Below, piece after piece: positions 19,188 to 28,687 of a stretch of DNA of 32,042 bases; within the stretch, counting starts at the first letter, position 1; the number at the start of each line of letters is the position of its first letter. Location: the NCBI RefSeq assembly GCF_018066915.1, contig NZ_JAGPVV010000091.1, positions 1 to 32,042 of the forward strand, written 5' to 3'. A program made the translations under genes and the position numbers. This DNA comes from Roseovarius sp. (lineage in GTDB: Bacteria > Pseudomonadota > Alphaproteobacteria > Rhodobacterales > Rhodobacteraceae). The notes under the pieces are model-generated. The model was not told the DNA's origin. It ran no database searches and was given only the letters and a program-made list of their open reading frames with translations.

Positions 19188-19724
19188 AGTTGGTCCTTTG
19201 GTCAAGTCGCGTCGCAATCGGTGCCGGACGCGGAAAAATTAAAGAGTGTGAGAACACGGGAACCAGGCAAACTGGCGACACACAGAGGGCTTTCCGATCG
19301 CTCGGCGGTGGGGTTGCGGCAGGTGTTTGGCCCTAGGTCTGCTTTGGTGCGTTTCGTCACGGGTGATCATCCATGGCTGGGATGGGATGAGGCGCTCCTC
19401 AAGGATGTGAACGGCATGTGAACGCGGGGGGTTATCTATCCTCATGGGTAGACGGAACGCCGACAGGCGGGGCGAATGGCGCAAAACCCCGGATTTTCGC
19501 CCAGAATTGGGGGCGCAGGGGCCGCAACCGTTACTGACCAGCCGCGATAGATAGCGCTGCCATCTTTTGCGCTGAGGCGTGATCTTTCGTGGGCCAAAAC
19601 TGGCCTTTGGCGTTTGTAAACAATGCCAAGGCGCAACCGTTGAACGCGAAGACACATGTTGCAGCCGACATATTTGAAAAGATCACCGAGCGGGCCTTTT
19701 CAGATCTGTCCCCAAGTACGGACC
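19188..19724. promoter_or_regulatory. 537-bp divergent control region of the che island
   Basis: This gap separates receptor 1 (-) from the che operon (+). I see no convincing gene in it. It holds a tandem direct repeat ATGTGAACG at 19405-19413 and 19416-19424, exactly 11 bp apart (one helical turn). It also holds GGCCA-AAAC-TGGCC at about 19592-19605, and an imperfect dyad from TTGGC (19608) to GCCAA (19629) with TTGT-AA-ACAA inside it. Single TTAA and no spaced TTAA pair argue against a full CtrA site. Promoters for both directions must lie here. Confidence 0.4.
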
Positions 19725-20057
19725 ATGGACCCCATGACCAAGAAACTGCCTCTGACCGGGGATTTGAAGATCGCCTCGGCGGATGATCTTGCCCGGCAAT
19801 TGAACACCGCCCTGACCGCGGGCGATGTCAGCCTTTGCACCAAGAAACTCGTCAGCATTGATGCCGCCAGCATTCAGATCCTGGTGTCCGCGTTCGCGAC
19901 GGCGCAGGGCACAGGCCACAAGCTTGCCGTTGATATGCCCTCGGGCGGCGTTCTGGAAACCGCGTTTGAGCGTCTTGCGCTCTTGCCGCTGGCCGTTGTC
20001 GAGACGGGCGTTCTCGTCGGGATCACGGGCGTTCAAACCCTGCAGGTGGCTGCATGA
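19725..20057 (+). CDS. STAS-domain protein, first gene of the che operon
   Basis: Small soluble protein of 110 residues with the STAS (anti-anti-sigma/MlaB-like) pattern. A short strand GDLKIASADDLARQLNTAL is followed by the signature VSIDAASIQILVSAFATA, where SpoIIAA-type proteins carry their phosphorylatable Ser, and then KLAVDMPSGGVLETAFERLAL. It is coupled to cheY by ATGA. STAS proteins at the head of alphaproteobacterial che operons are known by annotation, but I know of no settled function; adaptor or scaffold are possibilities. The start is uncertain: ATG 19725 and ATG 19734 both fit, and ATG 19656 would add unconserved residues. None has a strong ribosome site. Confidence 0.8.
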   Translation: MDPMTKKLPLTGDLKIASADDLARQLNTALTAGDVSLCTKKLVSIDAASIQILVSAFATAQGTGHKLAVDMPSGGVLETAFERLALLPLAVVETGVLVGITGVQTLQVAA

Positions 20058-20416
20058 AAACGGTTCTGGCAGTCGACGATTCCCCGTCCATCCGGCAAAT
20101 GGTTGGCCTGACCCTGCGCGGGGCGGGCTATAATGTGATCGAGGCCGTGGATGGGCGGGACGCCTTGGAAAAGGCCACCACACTCAAGATCGACGCGGTT
20201 CTGACCGATCAGAACATGCCGAATTTGGATGGTCTGGGCTTTATCCGCGCCTTTCGCGCCCATCCAAGCAGTCAGGGTATTCCGGTGATCTTTCTGTCCA
20301 CCGACTCGGCGGATGCGCTCAAGCAAGAGGCGCGCTCGGTCGGTGCCCTTGGCTGGATGGTCAAACCCTTTTCACAGGCGCAACTTCTCAGCGTCATTCA
20401 GAAGGTTCTGGGATGA
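20054..20416 (+). CDS. cheY: CheY-type response regulator
   Basis: Single receiver domain of 120 residues without an output domain. The acidic pocket is Asp8/Asp9 (AVDDSPS), the phosphoacceptor is Asp52 in LTDQNMPNLDG, and the switch residues are Thr83 (FLSTDS) and Lys104 (MVKPFS). It should carry phosphoryl groups from CheA to the flagellar switch or serve as a phosphate sink. It overlaps both neighbours by 4 bp. It is the only stand-alone CheY here; others may exist elsewhere in the genome. Confidence 0.95.
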   Translation: MKTVLAVDDSPSIRQMVGLTLRGAGYNVIEAVDGRDALEKATTLKIDAVLTDQNMPNLDGLGFIRAFRAHPSSQGIPVIFLSTDSADALKQEARSVGALGWMVKPFSQAQLLSVIQKVLG

Positions 20417-22338
20417 TGGACAATGACATTGCTGCGGTCTTTCTCGAAGAGGCCAGCGAACTTCTCGAAAGCCTCGAACAGGGTCTCTTGAAGCTGCAAG
20501 CGGACCCGAACAACCTCGATCTGGTCAACGCGGCCTTTCGCGATCTGCACACGATCAAAGGCTCGGGCGCGATGTTCGGATTCACCGAACTCGCGGCCTT
20601 CATCCACAAATTCGAGACTGCGTTCGAGAAAATCCGGTCCGGGCAGATCAAGGTCAGCGCATCGCTCATTCGCGTGGCGCTGCGCGCCGCCGACGAAATC
20701 AAGGGGTTTCTCGCGGGCGACGCCGCAATGACCCCGGCACGTCAGGCGATCCTCGATGATCTGGAACAGGCTGTCAGCCCCGGTCAGGCTCCGGTGGAGA
20801 CACCCGTTTCTGCCTCTGACGCAGGCTGGCGGCTCTGCTTTCGGCTGGCCTCGGATGCCCTTGCCCTTGGCGCGCGTCCCGAGGCGCTCTTGGATGAATT
20901 GCGCGGGCTTGGGGCGTTCAACCTTGTGGCCGATCTGAGCCGCATTGCGCCCCTCGACCAGATCGAGACGCAGGCCTGTCTGTTGGGATGGTCCACGGAC
21001 CTGCCCGCATCGGCCCGTGAGGATGACATCAAGGCGGTCTTCATGTTCCACGAGGGCAACATGGAGTTCAACCTCGTCAACCTTGCCGCCCCCGCGCCAG
21101 AGGCCCCCGCCTCTCCCTTGCCCCTTGCCGAATCCGCTGGGACCGGGCCGCAGCCCGCCCAGCAAAGTGCGACCATGCGCGTGCCGGCCGAGCGTCTGGA
21201 CGAGTTGATGGATCAGGTGGGCGAGTTGGTCATCGCCGAGGCCCGCCTCTGCGCCTTGGCCAACACCAGCAAAGACCCCTCCATGATGGCCGCCGTCGAG
21301 GACATTCAGCGCCTCGCCTCACGGATGCGCGACACCACGATGAGCATCCGCATGGTGCCCATCAGCTCGATCATCGGCCGGTTTCGCCGCCTTGTGCATG
21401 ACCTCTCCGAAGGCTTGGGCAAGAGCGTCAACTTTGTCGTCACGGGGGCGGATACCGAGCTTGATAAAACCGTGATCGAACGTCTGGGCGATCCGCTTGT
21501 CCATATCATCCGCAACGCGATTGATCACGGGCTCGAGACAGACGAGGCTCGCGCCGCCGCAGGCAAACCGGATCGCGGCACCATCGAACTCAGCGCCGAG
21601 CATCTCGGGGCCGAGGTGGTGATCTCGGTCAAGGACAATGGCCGCGGTCTCGACCGCAGCAAGCTGCGCGCGCGCGCCATCGAACAGGGTCTTTTGTCCC
21701 CCGAGGCCACCCCATCCGAGGCCGAACTGTTCGCGCTCATCCTCGAGCCGGGATTCTCCACTGCCGCCAAGGTCACAGAGCTTTCGGGGCGCGGTGTGGG
21801 CATGGATGTGGTCAAGCGCACGGTCGAAGGCCTGAGGGGACGCATCGTGATCGCGTCCGAGCCGGGGCACGGCACGACCTTCACGCTGCGCCTGCCGCTC
21901 ACGCTGTCGATCATCGACGGGCTTTTGGTCGAGGTCGGCGGGGATCGCTACATCATCCCGATGGCGGCGGTGCAAGAGATTGTGGAGCTGCCCGCCAGTG
22001 ATGCCGGGGCCGATACAACCTCGAGCTTTCTGCAAATCCGCAACGCTCTGGTGCCGTTCCTGCGGCTCAGAACGCTTCTGGACTGCGCCGAGGAACGCAA
22101 CACGCTTCAGAATGTGATTGTGGTCTCTGCCTCCAGTATGCGCGTTGGGCTTGTGGTCGACCGTATCCTTGGCACCAACCAGACCGTCGTCAAACAGATG
22201 TCGCGCCTGCACGCGGGCGTCAAATCCATCTCGGGTGCCACCATCCTTGGCGACGGCTCGGTCGCGCTCGTGCTGGAAGTCGGCAATCTTGTCGAACTGG
22301 CCCGGACGGACCTCAGAAAAATCGAGAAAGCAGCATGA
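20413..22338 (+). CDS. cheA: Chemotaxis histidine kinase CheA
   Basis: Soluble kinase of 641 residues that autophosphorylates in response to receptor arrays and passes phosphate to CheY and CheB. Domains in order are: the HPt P1 with phospho-His46 in LHTIKGSGAMFGF; a divergent P2-like region (about 135-230); the dimerisation P3 (RVPAERLDELMDQVGELVIAEARL); the P4 ATPase with N box (LVHIIRNAIDHGLE), G1 (VKDNGRGLD) and G2 (GRGVGMDVVKR); and the CheW-like P5 (LSIIDGLLVEVGGDRYIIPMAA to the C-terminus). All catalytic boxes look intact. The start overlaps the cheY stop; a second ATG follows at once. CheW is coupled at the 3' end. Confidence 0.97.
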   Translation: MMDNDIAAVFLEEASELLESLEQGLLKLQADPNNLDLVNAAFRDLHTIKGSGAMFGFTELAAFIHKFETAFEKIRSGQIKVSASLIRVALRAADEIKGFLAGDAAMTPARQAILDDLEQAVSPGQAPVETPVSASDAGWRLCFRLASDALALGARPEALLDELRGLGAFNLVADLSRIAPLDQIETQACLLGWSTDLPASAREDDIKAVFMFHEGNMEFNLVNLAAPAPEAPASPLPLAESAGTGPQPAQQSATMRVPAERLDELMDQVGELVIAEARLCALANTSKDPSMMAAVEDIQRLASRMRDTTMSIRMVPISSIIGRFRRLVHDLSEGLGKSVNFVVTGADTELDKTVIERLGDPLVHIIRNAIDHGLETDEARAAAGKPDRGTIELSAEHLGAEVVISVKDNGRGLDRSKLRARAIEQGLLSPEATPSEAELFALILEPGFSTAAKVTELSGRGVGMDVVKRTVEGLRGRIVIASEPGHGTTFTLRLPLTLSIIDGLLVEVGGDRYIIPMAAVQEIVELPASDAGADTTSSFLQIRNALVPFLRLRTLLDCAEERNTLQNVIVVSASSMRVGLVVDRILGTNQTVVKQMSRLHAGVKSISGATILGDGSVALVLEVGNLVELARTDLRKIEKAA

Positions 22339-22817
22339 CCAAAGACCTCAACGGATCGGGCAAGACCCTCACGGTGGTTGCCCTGCGCCTTGGCGAACGG
22401 ATTTTCGCCATTGAAACCAGCGCGGTTCTGGAAATCCTTGCGCCCATCCCCGTGACCCGCGTGCCCCATGGCGGTGCCTTTGCGCAAGGCGTCATCAATG
22501 TGCGCGGCGGGGTTGTGCCGCTCGCTGATCTGCGCGTGATCTTCAGCATTCCCAAGCTGCCAGTCGATGAGGACACGCGCATTCTGGTTCTGCAAATCCC
22601 GATCGAGAACGAACAGATCACCGTGGGCATCACCGCCGACGAGGTTCTCGAAGTGGTGACGGTCGACTGTGATCGTATCGAACCCTTGCCGCCCGCAGGC
22701 ACGATCTGGCCCGCCGACTATGTTCGGGGCCTCATTCAGGGGCACGAGGGCATCACCATCCTGCCCGACCTCAACACCATCTTTGCTGCGCATATCGCGA
22801 CAGCCAACGCTCTCTGA
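22335..22817 (+). CDS. cheW: CheW coupling protein 1
   Basis: SH3-like scaffold of 160 residues that links receptors to CheA. The CheW pattern is VVALRLGERIFAIETSAVLEILAPIPVTRVP, then GVINVRGGVVPLADLRVIF and VGITADEVLEVVTVD. Compared with the second CheW (24505-25017) it has a different C-terminal third, suggesting the two are not interchangeable. It overlaps the cheA stop (ATGA) and is 18 bp before the receptor gene. Confidence 0.94.
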   Translation: MTKDLNGSGKTLTVVALRLGERIFAIETSAVLEILAPIPVTRVPHGGAFAQGVINVRGGVVPLADLRVIFSIPKLPVDEDTRILVLQIPIENEQITVGITADEVLEVVTVDCDRIEPLPPAGTIWPADYVRGLIQGHEGITILPDLNTIFAAHIATANAL

Positions 22818-22835: not shown

Positions 22836-24494
22836 ATGAGACTGACCATCAAAGCGAAACTGGCCGCAACCTTCGTGTTGGTTCTGGGCATGGCGGGATT
22901 TGCCATGATCCTGGCGCTGAAGGATATGGCGGAGTTCAATCATAACCTCGACGTCATCGCGAACGAGGCGGGCGAGCGGGTTCACATGTCGGAGAAACTG
23001 ATTTCGGCGCAGGCCCGGTTTCAACGTGACACCCGGAGTTATCTGCTGGCCGAGAATGTCGTGACCAAACGTGAGATTCAGAAAGAGATTGAAGAGGGGC
23101 TGGACGCGAAAAAAGAGGCGTTTGACCGCCTTCTGTCCATTGCCACCCCTGAGGGGCAGACGCTCTTGGCAGAGTATAGCCGGATTGAGCAGGATCTTTT
23201 GACGATCAATGCCAAGGCCATGTCGATGAAGGACATGAACCAACAGCTTGAGGCGTTTCGATATCTTCAGACCGAGGGTGCGCCGAGTGCGCGCGCGATG
23301 CGCGATACGCTGAATGAAATCATCGGTATCAACGAAACGATGATGACCGAAATGCTCGCGGATGCCGATGTGCAGTATACGAATTCCCGCAACCTGCTGG
23401 TGGTTCTCATGTCAGCCGCCGCTGTCATCGGTATTGGTGCCGCCGCTTGGGTCACATTCTCGATTTCCAAGGGTCTGTCGAGCGCGATTGCCATCACTGG
23501 CCGGGTTGCCTCTGGCGACCTGACCGAAACTGCCGCCGTTCGCGGCAATGACGAGATCAGCGATCTCTTGCAAGCGGTCAACGCGATGGTTCTCAAGCTG
23601 CGCGATGTCGTGGGCGATGTCTCGTCAGCCATCCGCAATGTCGCCTCGGGCAGTCAGCAAATGGCCGCCACATCTGAGGAATTGTCGCAAGGGGCCACCG
23701 AACAGGCGTCGTCCACCGAAGAAGCGTCGTCCTCGGTCGAACAGATGTCGGCCAATATCAAGCAGAGCGCCGAGAACGCCGCCGAAACCGAGCGCATGGC
23801 CATCAAATCCGCGCAGGATGCCCGCGAGAGCGGCAAGGCCGTGGCCGAAGCCGTCACCGCCATGCAGGATATCGCCAATCGCATCATGGTCGTGCAGGAG
23901 ATTGCCCGCCAGACCGACCTCTTGGCCCTCAACGCCGCGGTCGAGGCCGCGCGCGCAGGCGAGCATGGGCGCGGCTTTGCCGTGGTTGCCGCAGAGGTGC
24001 GCAAGCTGGCCGAACGCAGCCAGACCGCCGCAGCGGAAATCTCTGCCCTCTCTGCCGCCACGGTCCGTTCGGCGGAAACCGCAGGCACCATGCTGCAGGG
24101 TCTCGTGCCTGATATCGAGCGCACATCGGCCCTTGTCAGCGAAATCTCTGCCGCGTCCCAAGAGCTGTCCGCCGGTGCCACGCAGGTCAATCTGGCCATC
24201 CAGCAACTCGACAAGGTGACGCAAGAGAACACCTCGGCAGCCGAAGAACTCTCGGCCACAGCCGAAGAGCTTTCGAGCCAATCCGAGCAGTTGCAAGACG
24301 CGGTGTCCTACTTTGTTCTGGCCGACAAAGGGGCCGCTCAGCCTCAGGAGAAATCCGCCCCGGCCCGTGCCGCCGTGCGTTCGGTCAAGCCGACCGCAGG
24401 CAAGACCGGGCGAAATGCCGGTGGGTTCACCTTCAGCCTTGGGGCGAACAAGGATGATCTCGACCATGGCTTTGCATCGCGCGACGCGGCGTGA
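22836..24494 (+). CDS. Methyl-accepting chemotaxis protein 2
   Basis: Transmembrane chemoreceptor of 552 residues, a close paralogue of receptor 1. Both start MRLxIKAKLA. Membrane helices lie at about 8-29 and 190-210, with a helical periplasmic domain between them, then HAMP and a signalling coiled coil. The tip is canonical ([40 protein letters not shown]), and [20 protein letters not shown] is in the methylation/bundle region. An Ala/Lys-rich linker leads to a tail starting GGFTFSLGA and continuing DDLD, shared with receptor 1. The start has AAAGG upstream. It lies between two cheW genes. Confidence 0.96.
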
Positions 24495-24504
24495 GGGCGG
24501 GACA

Positions 24505-25017
24505 ATGAACGAGAACACCCAAGTCGTCACCTTTCAATCGAGCGGCTCGCTCTTTGCTGTACCCGTGAACCGGGTCCAGCAGATCCTCGACACCCAGCCG
24601 ATTGCGGCGCTGCCCAACAGCCCCGCAGAACTCTTGGGTCTCATTGACGTGCGCGGCGAGAGCATCGCCGTCACTGACCTTTCAGAGCTTTTGTCGCGTG
24701 GACCGACCAAGGACACCTCCGAGACGCGCATTCTCATCCTGAGCCTCGTGAACGGCCCGCACAGGTCTACCGTAGGTCTGAAAACCGACCGCGTGATCGA
24801 GGTGACGGATCTCGACGAAGGCGGGGTCAAATCCCCCGCCGACGCAGGGATCACCACATGGGATGAAAGCGTGCTGACCGGCATTGGCCGCCGCAACGGC
24901 GATTTCGTCTGTATCCTCAATCTCGAAAAACTCTTTGGCGAAGGGGCGCGGCGCAAAACGCCCGAATTCGTCACCCAACGTCCCATCGAGACCACGGCGG
25001 AGTTTGCCCTGACATGA
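24505..25017 (+). CDS. cheW: CheW coupling protein 2
   Basis: Second CheW-like scaffold, 170 residues. The pattern is VVTFQSSGSLFAVPVNRVQQILDTQPIAALPNSPAELLGLIDVRGESIAVTDLSELL split over its first half, then TVGLKTDRVIEVTDLD and DFVCILNLEKLF at the end. ATG 24505 lies 10 bp after the receptor stop, preceded by a GGGCGGG ribosome site. The frame is open upstream only as a shadow of the receptor gene. It overlaps cheR by ATGA. Two CheW proteins in one operon suggest separate arrays or specialised roles for CheA and receptors. Confidence 0.93.
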   Translation: MNENTQVVTFQSSGSLFAVPVNRVQQILDTQPIAALPNSPAELLGLIDVRGESIAVTDLSELLSRGPTKDTSETRILILSLVNGPHRSTVGLKTDRVIEVTDLDEGGVKSPADAGITTWDESVLTGIGRRNGDFVCILNLEKLFGEGARRKTPEFVTQRPIETTAEFALT

Positions 25018-25856
25018 ACCTCTCCCGCGCCAAATCCTATCATGACCAATTTGCCGAGGTGATTTCCCGCGAGACCGGGATCAAACTGCCTTCAGGCAAG
25101 AAGGTGATGATCGAAAGCCGCCTGCGCCGCCGGGTGCAGACCCTGGGTTTTCCCTCGCTCGAGGATTATTTCCGTCATCTCTTTGAGGACGGCGGGTTTG
25201 GCGCGGAACGCGATGAGGTGATTGACCTCATCACCACCAACAAGACCGATTTTTTCCGGGAACCCGCCCATTTCCAATGTCTCATGAGCGAGATGCTGCC
25301 CCAGATCATCCAGCGCAAACAGCGCCTCAACCGGCCTGTCGATATCAAGTTCTGGAGTGCGGCCTGTTCGGACGGGTCCGAGGCCTATACGGCGGCGATG
25401 CTGCTGGAAGAGGCGGTGCGCAACGGGGCGGGGTTTCAATACGCCATCCTCGGCACCGATATTTCCACCCGCATGGTCGAGGCCGCCAAACGCGCGATCT
25501 ATACAACTGCGGCCCTCTCTCCGGTGCCCTCCGCCCTGCGCGCACGCTACACGATGCAAGGTCGCAGCGAGGACATGCGCGGGATGGCACGGATCGTGCC
25601 TGCTCTCCGGAGCAAGACAAACTTTTCCCACCTCAATCTGATGGACGACAGTTATCCGGTGGACGAGGACGTTGACATCATCTTCTTGCGCAACGTGCTC
25701 ATCTACTTTGAACCCGAAGATCAGGCGCGGGTCATTGCCCGCCTCGCGCGTCACCTCACCCCCCATGGCTATCTTGTGGTTGGACATTCGGAATCCATGA
25801 CCGTGAAACAGCCCAACCTCAGACAGCTTGCCACGGCTGTGTTTCAAAAAGAGTAG
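25014..25856 (+). CDS. cheR: Chemotaxis protein methyltransferase CheR
   Basis: SAM-dependent methyltransferase of 280 residues that methylates receptor glutamates for adaptation. The N-terminal helical domain contains KKVMIESRLRRRVQTLGF. The substrate-side motif is ITTNKTDFFREPAHF, the SAM domain has FWSAACSDGSEAYTAAMLL and ILGTDIS, and the catalytic-domain end is DIIFLRNVLIYFEPEDQ with YLVVGHSESM. The usual CheR SAM loop reads close to SxGEEPY; here it is SDGSEAY, a modest change at a normally strict site. It overlaps the second cheW by ATGA and is followed by cheB after 6 bp. Confidence 0.95.
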   Translation: MNLSRAKSYHDQFAEVISRETGIKLPSGKKVMIESRLRRRVQTLGFPSLEDYFRHLFEDGGFGAERDEVIDLITTNKTDFFREPAHFQCLMSEMLPQIIQRKQRLNRPVDIKFWSAACSDGSEAYTAAMLLEEAVRNGAGFQYAILGTDISTRMVEAAKRAIYTTAALSPVPSALRARYTMQGRSEDMRGMARIVPALRSKTNFSHLNLMDDSYPVDEDVDIIFLRNVLIYFEPEDQARVIARLARHLTPHGYLVVGHSESMTVKQPNLRQLATAVFQKE

Positions 25857-25862
25857 ACCGCG

Positions 25863-26969
25863 ATGCTGGACAGTGCCTGCAAACCTCAGATTTCCGTCTT
25901 GATCGTGGACGATTCCGCCTCGGCGCGCGCCATGCTGATGCGCATCGTGGAAACCGATCCGACGCTCAAACTGTTCGGCACGGCGGCGGATGCCTTTATC
26001 GCCGTGTCGAAAATGCAAGCGGGCCTGCCCGATGTCATGCTGCTCGACATGGAATTGCCGCGCATGTCCGGGCTCGATTTTCTGCGCAAGATCATGGCGC
26101 AACGGCCCATTCCGGTGGTGATCTGCTCCAGCCATGCCGAGGCGGGATCAGACCTTGCGCTGACCGCCCTTGCCAGTGGCGCGGTCGAGGTTGTCTCGAA
26201 ACCCGCGCCGAGGACCGATGCCGATTTTCAGGAGTCCGCCATCGCCATCTGTGACGCGATCCACGCCGCCGCCGAAACCGGCCACAAGGCGGCACGCAAG
26301 GTCACGCCCCCCCGCGAGACCGGCACCAAGCTCTTGGCGGATGCCCTCATTCCGCCCGCACGGCCCAAAGCCATCGCCCCGACAACGCCCATCGTCTGTA
26401 TCGGGGCGTCCACCGGCGGCACAGAGGCGATCCGCTCGATTCTGGTTGACCTGCCGGTGACATGCCCCCCGGTTGTCATCGTGCAGCACATGCCGGCCGG
26501 TTTTACCGCCGCCTTCGCGCGCCGCCTCAACGGCCTCTGCCGCGTCAGCGTGAAAGAGGCCGCTGATGGTGATATGTGCAACCCCGGCGAGGTGCTGATT
26601 GCGCCGGGCAATTTTCACATGATGCTGGCCCGCCATGGGCGCGGCTATAGCGTCAAGGTGGTGGATGGCCCCTATATCTGTCGGCATCGCCCTTCGGTCG
26701 ATATCCTCTTTCGCTCTGCCGCCCAGACCGCCGGCTCGAATGCGCTCGGGATCATCCTTACGGGTATGGGCGATGATGGGGCACGCTGCTTGCGCGAGAT
26801 GCGCGATGCCGGGGCCACGACCCTTGCCCAGAACGAGGAAACCTGCGTCGTCTTTGGCATGCCGCGTGAGGCGATCCGCATGGGGGCCGCGACGCGCGTT
26901 GTCGCGCTCTCCGAGGTTCCCGGCGCGATTGGCGCCTTTGCCAATACCCATCAACTCCGCGCGAGGTAG
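25863..26969 (+). CDS. cheB: Chemotaxis glutamate methylesterase CheB
   Basis: Response-regulator-controlled esterase of 368 residues that removes receptor methyl groups. The receiver domain has Asp16/Asp17 (IVDDSASARAM) and phosphoacceptor Asp62 (MLLDMELPRMSG). A linker (about 118-175) leads to the methylesterase domain with the catalytic triad: Ser183 (GASTGGTEAI), His209 (VIVQHMPAGFT) and Asp305 (LTGMGDDGA). Family segments RHRPSVDILFRSAA and VVFGMPREAI are intact. Together with CheR it gives a full adaptation pair; no cheD is present in the island. Confidence 0.97.
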   Translation: MLDSACKPQISVLIVDDSASARAMLMRIVETDPTLKLFGTAADAFIAVSKMQAGLPDVMLLDMELPRMSGLDFLRKIMAQRPIPVVICSSHAEAGSDLALTALASGAVEVVSKPAPRTDADFQESAIAICDAIHAAAETGHKAARKVTPPRETGTKLLADALIPPARPKAIAPTTPIVCIGASTGGTEAIRSILVDLPVTCPPVVIVQHMPAGFTAAFARRLNGLCRVSVKEAADGDMCNPGEVLIAPGNFHMMLARHGRGYSVKVVDGPYICRHRPSVDILFRSAAQTAGSNALGIILTGMGDDGARCLREMRDAGATTLAQNEETCVVFGMPREAIRMGAATRVVALSEVPGAIGAFANTHQLRAR

Positions 26970-26974
26970 ACCCG

Positions 26975-28687
26975 GTGCATCCTCACGTGCGAACCCTGTT
27001 GTGCAACGCCTATCTCGATTGTCTCGGCAAGGCGACCGGCACCATTGAAACGATCTTTCTCAAGGCCGGGCAGGGGCTTGGGATGAGCGTGGAAGACCTG
27101 ATGCAACTGCGCGCGGTCTTGGCCCGGCTCAGCGTGGTTCTTGGCCCGGAAGAAACCCAGACGCTGCGGGCGCTCTGCCTCAATTCGGTCGAGCACAGTG
27201 CAGAGATCAGCGTTGATGTGCAGGCCTTTGTTCAGATGGCCGAAACCCTGCGCGCGGGTATCCGCAAGATCCAGAGCAATGTCAGCCATCTGTCCGTGGT
27301 GATCCGCACCATGTCGGCCTCGGCCCCGATTTCGCGTATCTTGGGCAAATCCATGACGCGGCAGGAACCCAAGATCGACGAATTCTCGATCGAGCTGGCC
27401 CGTATCGCGGCCTCTGCCGACGCGCAGCTCAAATCGCTGCAAGCGCATATCGAGATCATCGAGGTCGAAATGGCCGATCTTGATCTCCTCTCTCTCAACC
27501 TCTCCCGCGACATGAAGGACAGGGCCGCCCCGGCCCTTGCCGGTCTCGAGGCGCTGATCCACGAAATTCAACGGGACCGGCACGAACTGGCCTCTGGCAA
27601 TGCCGTGATCGAAACCGGCATGCGGGATATCTTCGCCGAGGTGTCGGCCATCGTCGGGGAATTGCAGACAGGCGATTCCGTGCGGCAACGTCTGGAGCAT
27701 GTCGAGGTCATCACGCGCGCCTCTCTGGCCGCCGCCGTCGCCCAAGAGCGGCCAGAGGCAAGCGACGGGTTGTCCTATCTCGCGGTCTGTCAGGCCGACG
27801 CCAGCCGGGATGAGATTGCCCGCGATGTGGCCTCGGTGCTCCAGCGGCTTGCCGCCATCCGCGTCAAATCCGAGCAGGTTCTGGGCGCGGCGGATCAGGT
27901 CTATCTCGATCCGAACGACACCCAGAGAAAGCGGGTTGCGGCGATGATCGACTGTGCCAACCGCCTGTCGGCTGCGCTGCAGTCCAGCCAGACCAATCTG
28001 GATGTCCTGCACCGGATTGGGCACACCACACAGCACCATGTTGGCGCGATTCAGACCATCGCCGCCGAGATGGGGTTGCTGGATCATCATATCCGGATGC
28101 TGGGTCTGAATACCTTTATCGTCTGTTGCAACATGGGCTCCGAGGCGGGCGCGCTACAGGAGCTTTCGCGTCAGGTCTTGTCTCTGACCAAGATCTCCAA
28201 CGAAATCTTTGACCAGATCGCCACGACGACGGGCGCGCTGGCGACCACGACCATGCCCGATGTGTCGCGTGCGGCTGACAAGATGGCCCGCACGGTGGGG
28301 TTTGCGCAGGATATCTCTGACCGGCTCCGCGCCACCGATCAGGCGGTCATCGCCGCCAAAGAGGGCTGTGCCATCAAGGGCGACGCCCTCAAGATCGCGC
28401 TGCACGCAAGCCAGACATCGCTCGCCTCGCTTGACGCGGCCAAGGTTGATCTCGGCACCTTCATTTCGGGTCTCAGAGCGTTGATTTCAGGAGAAAATGC
28501 GGGGCGCTCGGTCTATGACAGCCTGCCGTCCGAGCAGGATCGCCTGAGCCAGCTTTACGCCATTTACACGATGGGCGCCGAGCGTCTGATCCATGACGGT
28601 ATTTTCGTAGGCACGCGCCAGATTACGCCGCCCCCCGACAGCGCGGCGCAGGCGAGCGGGGACGCGCTTGCCGATATCTTCTTTTGA
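26975..28687 (+). CDS. Unknown che-operon protein, candidate CheZ-like phosphatase
   Basis: A 570-residue protein, no membrane helix or signal peptide, mostly predicted helix; I do not recognise a named family. Visible elements: a helix with LQTGDSVRQRLEHVEVI (residues 230-246), in which Asp234 and Gln238 have the D-x-x-x-Q spacing of the CheZ active site (DLTGQ in E. coli CheZ). A segment at about 366-404 (MGLLDHHIRMLGLNTFIV, then GSEAGALQELSRQVLSLT) mimics the receptor hairpin pattern LLALNA...GxxGxxxxxxxxVxxL, but lacks the conserved Glu/Arg core. Near the C-terminus are YTMGAERLIHDG, a Pro/Ala linker and the end peptide DALADIFF, which resembles the CheY-binding tail of CheZ. GTG 26975 has GAGG upstream, and the gene is 5 bp after cheB. 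It may be a phosphatase, a soluble receptor-like protein, or both. Confidence 0.75.
   Translation: MHPHVRTLLCNAYLDCLGKATGTIETIFLKAGQGLGMSVEDLMQLRAVLARLSVVLGPEETQTLRALCLNSVEHSAEISVDVQAFVQMAETLRAGIRKIQSNVSHLSVVIRTMSASAPISRILGKSMTRQEPKIDEFSIELARIAASADAQLKSLQAHIEIIEVEMADLDLLSLNLSRDMKDRAAPALAGLEALIHEIQRDRHELASGNAVIETGMRDIFAEVSAIVGELQTGDSVRQRLEHVEVITRASLAAAVAQERPEASDGLSYLAVCQADASRDEIARDVASVLQRLAAIRVKSEQVLGAADQVYLDPNDTQRKRVAAMIDCANRLSAALQSSQTNLDVLHRIGHTTQHHVGAIQTIAAEMGLLDHHIRMLGLNTFIVCCNMGSEAGALQELSRQVLSLTKISNEIFDQIATTTGALATTTMPDVSRAADKMARTVGFAQDISDRLRATDQAVIAAKEGCAIKGDALKIALHASQTSLASLDAAKVDLGTFISGLRALISGENAGRSVYDSLPSEQDRLSQLYAIYTMGAERLIHDGIFVGTRQITPPPDSAAQASGDALADIFF

Follow-up and report, generated by a model that had tools for sequence, protein, structure and literature searches.

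The che operon in the window, by which we mean the whole analysed stretch of 32,042 nucleotides from Roseovarius sp., ends in an open reading frame for a 570-aa protein that matched no Pfam or NCBIfam model over the cut-off, and the question is what such a protein does at the end of a chemotaxis operon. A preliminary description had read it, from motifs, as a possible CheZ-like phosphatase with a degenerate receptor-tip-like segment, in a cluster with no recognisable CheZ, CheX, CheC or FliY. The open reading frame (26975-28687, with GTG as its start codon), its length and the sequences quoted in that description were all found in their places. The operon consists of the following genes:

19656..20057, forward strand: STAS-like gene that opens the operon (anti-sigma antagonist model, weak match below the cut-off)
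20054..20416, forward strand: cheY (domain match to Response_reg), the proposed substrate
20413..22338, forward strand: cheA
22335..22817, forward strand: cheW
22836..24494, forward strand: membrane mcp (4HB, HAMP and MCPsignal domains)
24505..25017, forward strand: second cheW, with a likely ATG start at 24505 inside the open reading frame 24313-25017
25014..25856, forward strand: cheR
25863..26969, forward strand: cheB
26975..28687, forward strand: TlpC-family gene (from the family alignment), 570 aa, last of the che operon, 5 bases past the cheB stop

A STAS-like gene also precedes cheY in several related operons. Judged by its sequence, the terminal protein is soluble: no stretch of its 570 residues is hydrophobic enough for a membrane helix, and the maximum hydropathy over 19 residues is 1.08, compared with 2.37 for the MCP of the operon as a control. 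No HAMP domain is listed for it at E up to 1, and Pfam scans of the window protein and of 38 family members found no sensory domain. Matches such as those to ATG17_like and KNOX1, obtained with the open reading frame or its family, were below the Pfam cut-off and were rejected as identities.

In an initial search of 60 genomes the gene was present in 3, its own genome included; three named records contain a relative, namely those of R. mucosus, a Roseovarius MAG and Roseovarius sp. 217. A profile built from the Roseovarius proteins had matches in 20 of 394 Rhodobacteraceae genomes, and an enlarged family profile in 208 of the 394. With family membership defined as E < 1e-20 against the enlarged profile, and three candidates scored per genome, we identified at least 38 places in at least 35 genomes. 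The listed matches with E > 1e-20 cover mostly profile positions 269-513 and are read as ordinary MCPs, except for a broken copy in genome G276. The main alignment (A4) comprises 38 members of 528-602 residues, namely the window protein, a close Roseovarius protein (84% identity) and 36 proteins at 12-26% identity to the window protein. Four sequences were left out of A4, all of which carry the QxxDxxxQR motif discussed below: L126, cut at a contig edge, the broken G276 copy (L046), and L005 and L006 from close Roseovarius relatives. Alignment A6 is without L121, the C-terminus of which deviates. To check whether the family profile itself had selected for this motif, we searched 335 genomes with a C-terminal profile that starts at about residue 505 and does not overlap it. 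Of the 43 matches listed, 35 are known family genes and 3 are new members (one in G147, two in G148), all of which carry the motif and adjoin cheY; the remaining weak matches are in G137, G236, G367 and G370 (E 0.02-0.05), and a match in G141 was rejected as a family member, since the protein is unrelated and looks like a glycosyltransferase. The gene-carrying genomes known among the 394 thus number 37, that is, 35 from the family profile plus G147 and G148.

A che operon is the location of 37 of the 38 aligned genes, of which 23 lie directly after cheB, 12 sit in divergent orientation next to the cheY end of such an operon and 2 belong to a second operon type; the one remaining gene is at a contig edge with no visible che neighbour. 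A tblastn search of the plasmid collection gave no match to the gene. The second paralogue type (L035 and L036) is placed between an mcp-like gene and cheY and cheA genes, and G110 carries both types (L029 and L035); two family members each are also found in G281, G298 and G148. In L046 the gene is broken into several open frames, and the motif-bearing and tip-bearing pieces are still recognisable. In Roseovarius sp. 217 (L006:7779-9425) the family gene is fused in frame to the CheB receiver, of which about the first 88 residues are present; the joint is a shared VVI, after which the family sequence continues from about residues 108-111, so that the remainder of cheB and the beginning of the family gene are absent. 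The fusion reflects a natural deletion or else an error of assembly. L129 is probably from the same genome as L006.

One of these relatives provides a connection to a protein that already has a name. L029, a member from G110, has 580 aa from its first listed start codon and follows cheB in an operon of the order cheY-cheA-cheW-cheW-cheR-cheB that contains no mcp, and the CheA3 P1 domain of G110 is 98% identical to PDB 3kyi, which we take to be from R. sphaeroides. CheOp2 of that species presumably has the same layout (cheY-cheA-cheW-cheW-cheR-cheB, without mcp), with tlpC, as we assume, placed after cheB1. In the excerpts consulted, R. sphaeroides TlpC is a soluble protein of 580 aa encoded in CheOp2, without canonical receptor architecture (PMC3964821, PMC6829392). 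The window protein is homologous to L029 at about 26% identity, and it is through L029 of G110 that the link to TlpC runs. On these comparisons, TlpC from CheOp2 of Rhodobacter (Cereibacter) sphaeroides very probably belongs to the divergent Rhodobacteraceae family of the window gene, and the window protein is not an orphan, as its length and operon match those of TlpC: it too closes a CheOp2-type operon, and it has 570 aa vs. about 580 aa, both without a transmembrane domain. Two-hybrid tests show contacts of TlpC with itself, CheW4 and CheA3; TlpC sits in the cytoplasmic cluster, which becomes diffuse upon deletion of tlpC, and a model in which it acts through CheA3 has been proposed (all PMC6829392, in part). 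It differs from our reading of the window protein in being described there as a cytoplasmic receptor-like protein, with no mention of a duplication or of DxxxQ in the parts covered. Likewise, the consulted parts of PMC10924463, PMC3964821, PMC2829493, PMC6829392, PMC2924250, PMC7750401, PMC4692393 and PMC12363192, a set to which the original TlpC papers do not belong, do not describe TlpC as a phosphatase or as internally duplicated.

The features that bear on the architecture of the protein are these:

26975..27748, forward strand: first hairpin (N half), residues 1-258, homologous to the C half
27308..27385, forward strand: degenerate first tip, residues 112-137, family consensus VAtNARI... 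(tip-only hhalign)
27749..28519, forward strand: second, MCP-like hairpin (C half), residues 259-515 (hhalign against MCPs of the same operons; solved MCPs)
28085..28180, forward strand: second, recognisable receptor tip, residues 371-402, with N379 invariant

By profile comparison, the window protein is a receptor signalling hairpin duplicated within one soluble chain. Comparison of the N half to the C half gave an hhalign E of 6e-10 (reversed control 1.4e-4), and comparison of the tips alone (residues 95-160 vs. 355-420) gave 9.4e-8 (reversed control 0.044). The C half matched the MCPs of the same operons at E 2.6e-9 (reversed control 0.06; 39 of the 41 collected MCP sequences were used in the alignment), with N379 aligned with the Asn of the LALNA tip, and a 22-member family profile found solved MCPs at E about 1e-15, compared with 1.3e-5 for the best non-MCP coiled coil. 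The first hairpin compared directly to MCPs was not significant (E 0.0028), and the MCP homology of the N half is established only via the C half. PF00015 is not listed for the window protein in a Pfam scan at E up to 1; 15 of 38 family members match it at that level (best 3.4e-5). AF2 models residues 1-275 as a hairpin with the first tip as the turn, closest to MCP hairpins among the families listed, and models the full-length protein with no hairpin at the second tip, because a continuous helix of residues 316-424 runs on through it. The degenerate receptor tip that the preliminary description had seen at about 366-404 is genuine MCP homology, as shown by the family profile and the hhalign comparison; the MCP part goes well beyond a small segment and comprises two hairpins in tandem, of which only the second copy had been seen, and the more degenerate tip at about 112-137 had been missed together with a YTMxxERxxH signature at 531-540. 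The C half is clearly homologous to the MCP signalling domain (PF00015; Tsr 1qu7, Thermotoga 2ch7), whereas the window protein differs from MCPs in its two hairpins per chain, its degenerate first tip and its lack of a transmembrane stretch. Natural soluble single-chain MCPs, with two MCP signalling domains per soluble chain, are described from Rhodospirillum centenum and others; compared by that description, which we consulted in part, they share this arrangement with the window protein and differ from it in consisting of MCP signalling domains only (PMC4692393).

The motif on which the phosphatase reading turns lies in the first hairpin, on its descending arm:

27662..27703, forward strand: residues 230-243, LQTGDSVRQRLEHV, with the invariant Q231-x2-D234-x3-Q238-R239 and a CheZ-like DxxxQ (41 of 41 members; helix-face phase)

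D234 and Q238, located in LQTGDSVRQRLEHVEVI, are unchanged together with Q231 and R239 in all 41 members (38 aligned and 3 found by the C-terminus alone). Throughout the 38 members of A4, the invariant positions are M1, Q231, D234, Q238, R239, N379, Y531, E536 and R537. We compared the surroundings of the motif to those in 26 of 30 alphaproteobacterial CheZ loci (the four longest proteins, L096, L098, L102 and L106, were left out), the profile of which finds E. coli CheZ (1kmi) at 3.3e-19. Numbered from the Asp, the commonest residues are the same in the family (n = 41) and in CheZ (n = 26) at -5 (A), -2 (F, 11 of 41), 0 (D), +2 (T, 13 of 41), +4 (Q), +5 (R), +9 (V) and +13 (L), and at +6 the family has L in place of the I of CheZ; they differ at the other offsets from -8 to +12, among which are -1 and +3. 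Position -1 is G in 28, S in 6 and A in 4 of the 41 family members, whereas CheZ has Q in 26 of 26; the G at +3, found in 26 of 26 CheZs, is absent from the family, and the family-invariant Q at -3 is absent from CheZ. The CheZ motif is given, in the excerpt consulted, as AxxFQ directly before D-x3-Q (PMC7750401), a sequence that the TlpC family lacks. Membership of the CheZ family, as far as family models report it, did not hold up: besides the absence of Q(-1) and G(+3), PF04344 is over the cut-off in none of the 22 gene-carrying genomes tested (two sub-threshold matches were found). For the class, 68 out of 190 genomes have a CheZ above it.

The hydrophobicity profile of the CheZ active helix was moved along the family with three window sizes. 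With two of them (542 and 534 positions) D234 was the best-fitting position, and it stayed so when D, Q and R were excluded; with the shortest (550 positions) it came second, or third once D, Q and R were excluded. This fit indicates that the Asp and Gln probably lie, with respect to the core of the bundle, on the face that they occupy in CheZ. In an unguided hhalign comparison, D234 fell on the Asp of CheZ and Q238 on its Gln. The hhalign scores against CheZ were 32.9 and 33.4, compared with 29.4 and 29.2 for the reversed CheZ profile and a block-shuffled maximum of about 20; another cut of all 41 members gave 28.6 vs. 28.8 reversed, and short cuts gave 21.3 vs. 16.4 and 20.3 vs. 14.4 reversed. 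With the CheZ HMM, the two Asp residues coincided in the best domain for 7 of the 38 members and in any domain for 10, with a best score of 9.6 bits vs. 6.3 for reversed sequences; the 12 members that are aromatic at -2 also scored weakly, and CheZ is not among the 25 of 157 families listed for the 38 members. Homology to CheZ over the whole protein was thus rejected, as hhalign stays near the reversed control (once below it) and the CheZ HMM has no significant matches. We do not claim common descent with CheZ, because the whole-profile similarity hardly exceeds reversed controls; we take the resemblance to be that of an active-site helix, perhaps arrived at by convergence. The window protein and CheZ (PF04344; E. 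coli 1kmi) share D-x3-Q on a long helix with a matching helix face, an R after the Q, as in the 26 alphaproteobacterial CheZs, and a linker followed by an acidic-hydrophobic tail. They differ in length (570 aa vs. 214 in 1kmi), in the two receptor-like hairpins of the TlpC family and in the position of the motif, which in the window protein is much farther from the hairpin turn: D234 is about 102 residues from its own turn, and in E. coli CheZ the turn is about 40 residues from the catalytic Asp.

The C-terminal part of the protein contains three further features:

28565..28597, forward strand: YTMGAERLIHD, residues 531-541, with Y531, E536 and R537 invariant, a family signature (family alignment)
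28607..28657, forward strand: Pro/Ala-rich linker, residues 545-561 (model confidence <50 at 554-559)
28658..28684, forward strand: GDALADIFF, residues 562-570, an acidic-hydrophobic C-terminal peptide and proposed CheY-docking tail

As a DNA pattern, YTMxxERxxH occurs in 14 of 120 genomes, all 14 times inside family genes, and we know of no catalytic meaning for it. The Pro/Ala linker and the terminal DALADIFF are present as originally reported. The last column of the alignment is F in 31 of 37 rows (the close Roseovarius copy left out), the C-terminus is hydrophobic in 37 of 38 members, and at least two of the last ten residues are acidic in 36 of 38. Tails of alphaproteobacterial CheZs are SQDDIDALL-like, and both CheZ C-terminal peptides and the FliM N-terminus bind CheY. 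The preliminary description had named in advance what would speak against it, namely orthologues that lack Asp234 and Gln238 or the C-terminal peptide; with the Asp and Gln kept in 41 of 41 members and the tail preserved in the proportions just given, it survived this comparison.

Other routes of CheY-P dephosphorylation were looked for as well. None of the 22 gene-carrying genomes tested, which include one where the gene is broken and one where it is fused, had a match to CheX or CheC, or to CheZ over the cut-off. A phosphatase candidate does exist in the window genome, a CheA3-like gene that lies elsewhere. This gene belongs to a CheOp3-like cytoplasmic-cluster set in the window genome (L133, G000:C292:18000-37900), which includes a short CheA (CheA4-like), CheR, CheB, CheW, a TlpT-like MCP ending in GFHGF and a receiver-only open reading frame, and the open frame that matches CheA3 has 1260 residues. 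CheA3 of R. sphaeroides is, like the proposed TlpC activity, an unusual chemotaxis phosphatase of the same bacteria, and differs in being a CheA-type protein, with P1 and P5 joined by a long linker, that according to the excerpt consulted dephosphorylates CheY6 and no other CheY (PMC6829392). Only 8 of the 37 gene-carrying genomes showed a match to CheA3 P1 with an E of 1e-20 or lower, so CheA3 is not the general answer and is unlikely to be the general partner of the family. A relation of the window protein to the CheA3 phosphatase domain was rejected, as two CheA3-like proteins contain several DxxxQ but no QxxDxxxQR. According to the parts of PMC2924250 consulted, R. sphaeroides lacks a CheZ homologue, and no phosphatase has been identified for CheY3-P and CheY4-P. 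Their autodephosphorylation has half-times of 36 and 38 s, respectively, whereas responses are over in <1 s, and the model given there accounts for the fast decay by CheY6 acting as a phosphate sink.

A flagellar role of the operon is not universal, since 7 of the 37 gene-carrying genomes (G100, G133, G176, G212, G215, G317 and G336; G215 is 86% complete) have no match to FlhA; in these the operon may serve a non-flagellar purpose, or flagella may have been lost. The window genome has three FlhA-family genes (contigs C352, C350 and C231 of G000) and no PF02154 match for FliM, compared with at most two flagellar systems per genome in the part of PMC12363192 consulted, and this combination may be real, may involve a divergent FliM, or may reflect contamination (3.5%).

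Of the readings considered, the one to which we give most weight, at a little under even, is that the window protein is an array-docked, CheZ-like CheY-P phosphatase. The intact second tip would dock the protein into the CheW/CheA array, and the tail would tether phosphorylated CheY in the manner of the CheZ and FliM peptides. In CheZ, the Asp contacts the active-site lysine of CheY and the Gln positions a water; if Asp234 and Gln238 act in the same way, CheY-P would be dephosphorylated at the array. The most likely substrate would be the CheY of the same operon (of the CheY3/CheY4 type in R. sphaeroides), and the activity would be an alternative or an addition to the CheY6 phosphate sink. Of the original proposal of a phosphatase on a receptor, the combination of a CheZ-like motif and a receptor tip in one protein is real and the conservation supports it, whereas CheZ family membership and the small MCP segment do not stand. 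A serious competitor, if a less probable one, is that TlpC is a soluble single-chain receptor with no enzyme activity that senses or organises the cytoplasmic array. QxxDxxxQR would then serve the structure of the bundle or the binding of a partner, such as CheW or another TlpC molecule. The MCP homology, which is the strongest signal, points this way, as do the resemblance of the modelled residues 1-275 to MCP hairpins above all, the place of R. sphaeroides TlpC in a cytoplasmic cluster that is diffuse without it (PMC6829392, in part), and the signature YTMxxERxxH, which at Y, E and R is as invariant as DxxxQ and has no known catalytic meaning. A receptor without activity would, however, hardly need the polar invariants Q, D, Q and R in one helix, in the phase of CheZ and with a CheZ-like tail, which go beyond the needs of a scaffold, and no sensory domain was found for it to sense with.

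The two-hybrid contact with CheA3 and the published model (PMC6829392, in part) suggest another role, in which TlpC is an adaptor, its tail holding CheY near CheA3 or CheA while TlpC controls the CheA3 phosphatase or the kinase. The CheOp3-like set with a CheA3-like gene in the window genome is consistent with this, but a P1 match at the level given above was found only in the 8 genomes mentioned, and we consider an adaptor unlikely. It is most improbable that the motif is a chance occurrence in a coiled coil, functionally meaningless: DxxxQ is short and some members contain several copies, but this copy is kept in 41 of 41, 3 of which were found through an independent part of the protein. Returning to the phosphatase, we propose, with somewhat more reserve than for the activity itself, a history in which Rhodobacteraceae without CheZ turned a duplicated soluble receptor core into a single-chain CheY-P phosphatase, with its tip in the array, a FliM/CheZ-like tail and a convergent D-x3-Q.

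The residues D234 and Q238, the tail and the second motif (Y531/E536/R537) offer handles by which these readings are directly testable, and a non-pathogenic laboratory strain is available for it. R. sphaeroides is a main model for complex chemotaxis, and what is at stake is the role of TlpC and the switching-off of CheY3-P and CheY4-P (PMC2924250 and PMC6829392, in part). If the proposal is true, TlpC, for a long time regarded as a receptor, would be the missing phosphatase for CheY3 and CheY4, with receptor and phosphatase in one molecule; it would represent an auxiliary phosphatase architecture built on a receptor and would show one way in which D-x3-Q chemistry came about in a different bundle. 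Even without an enzymatic role, the duplication recasts TlpC as a single-chain receptor core, one tip of which is degenerate.
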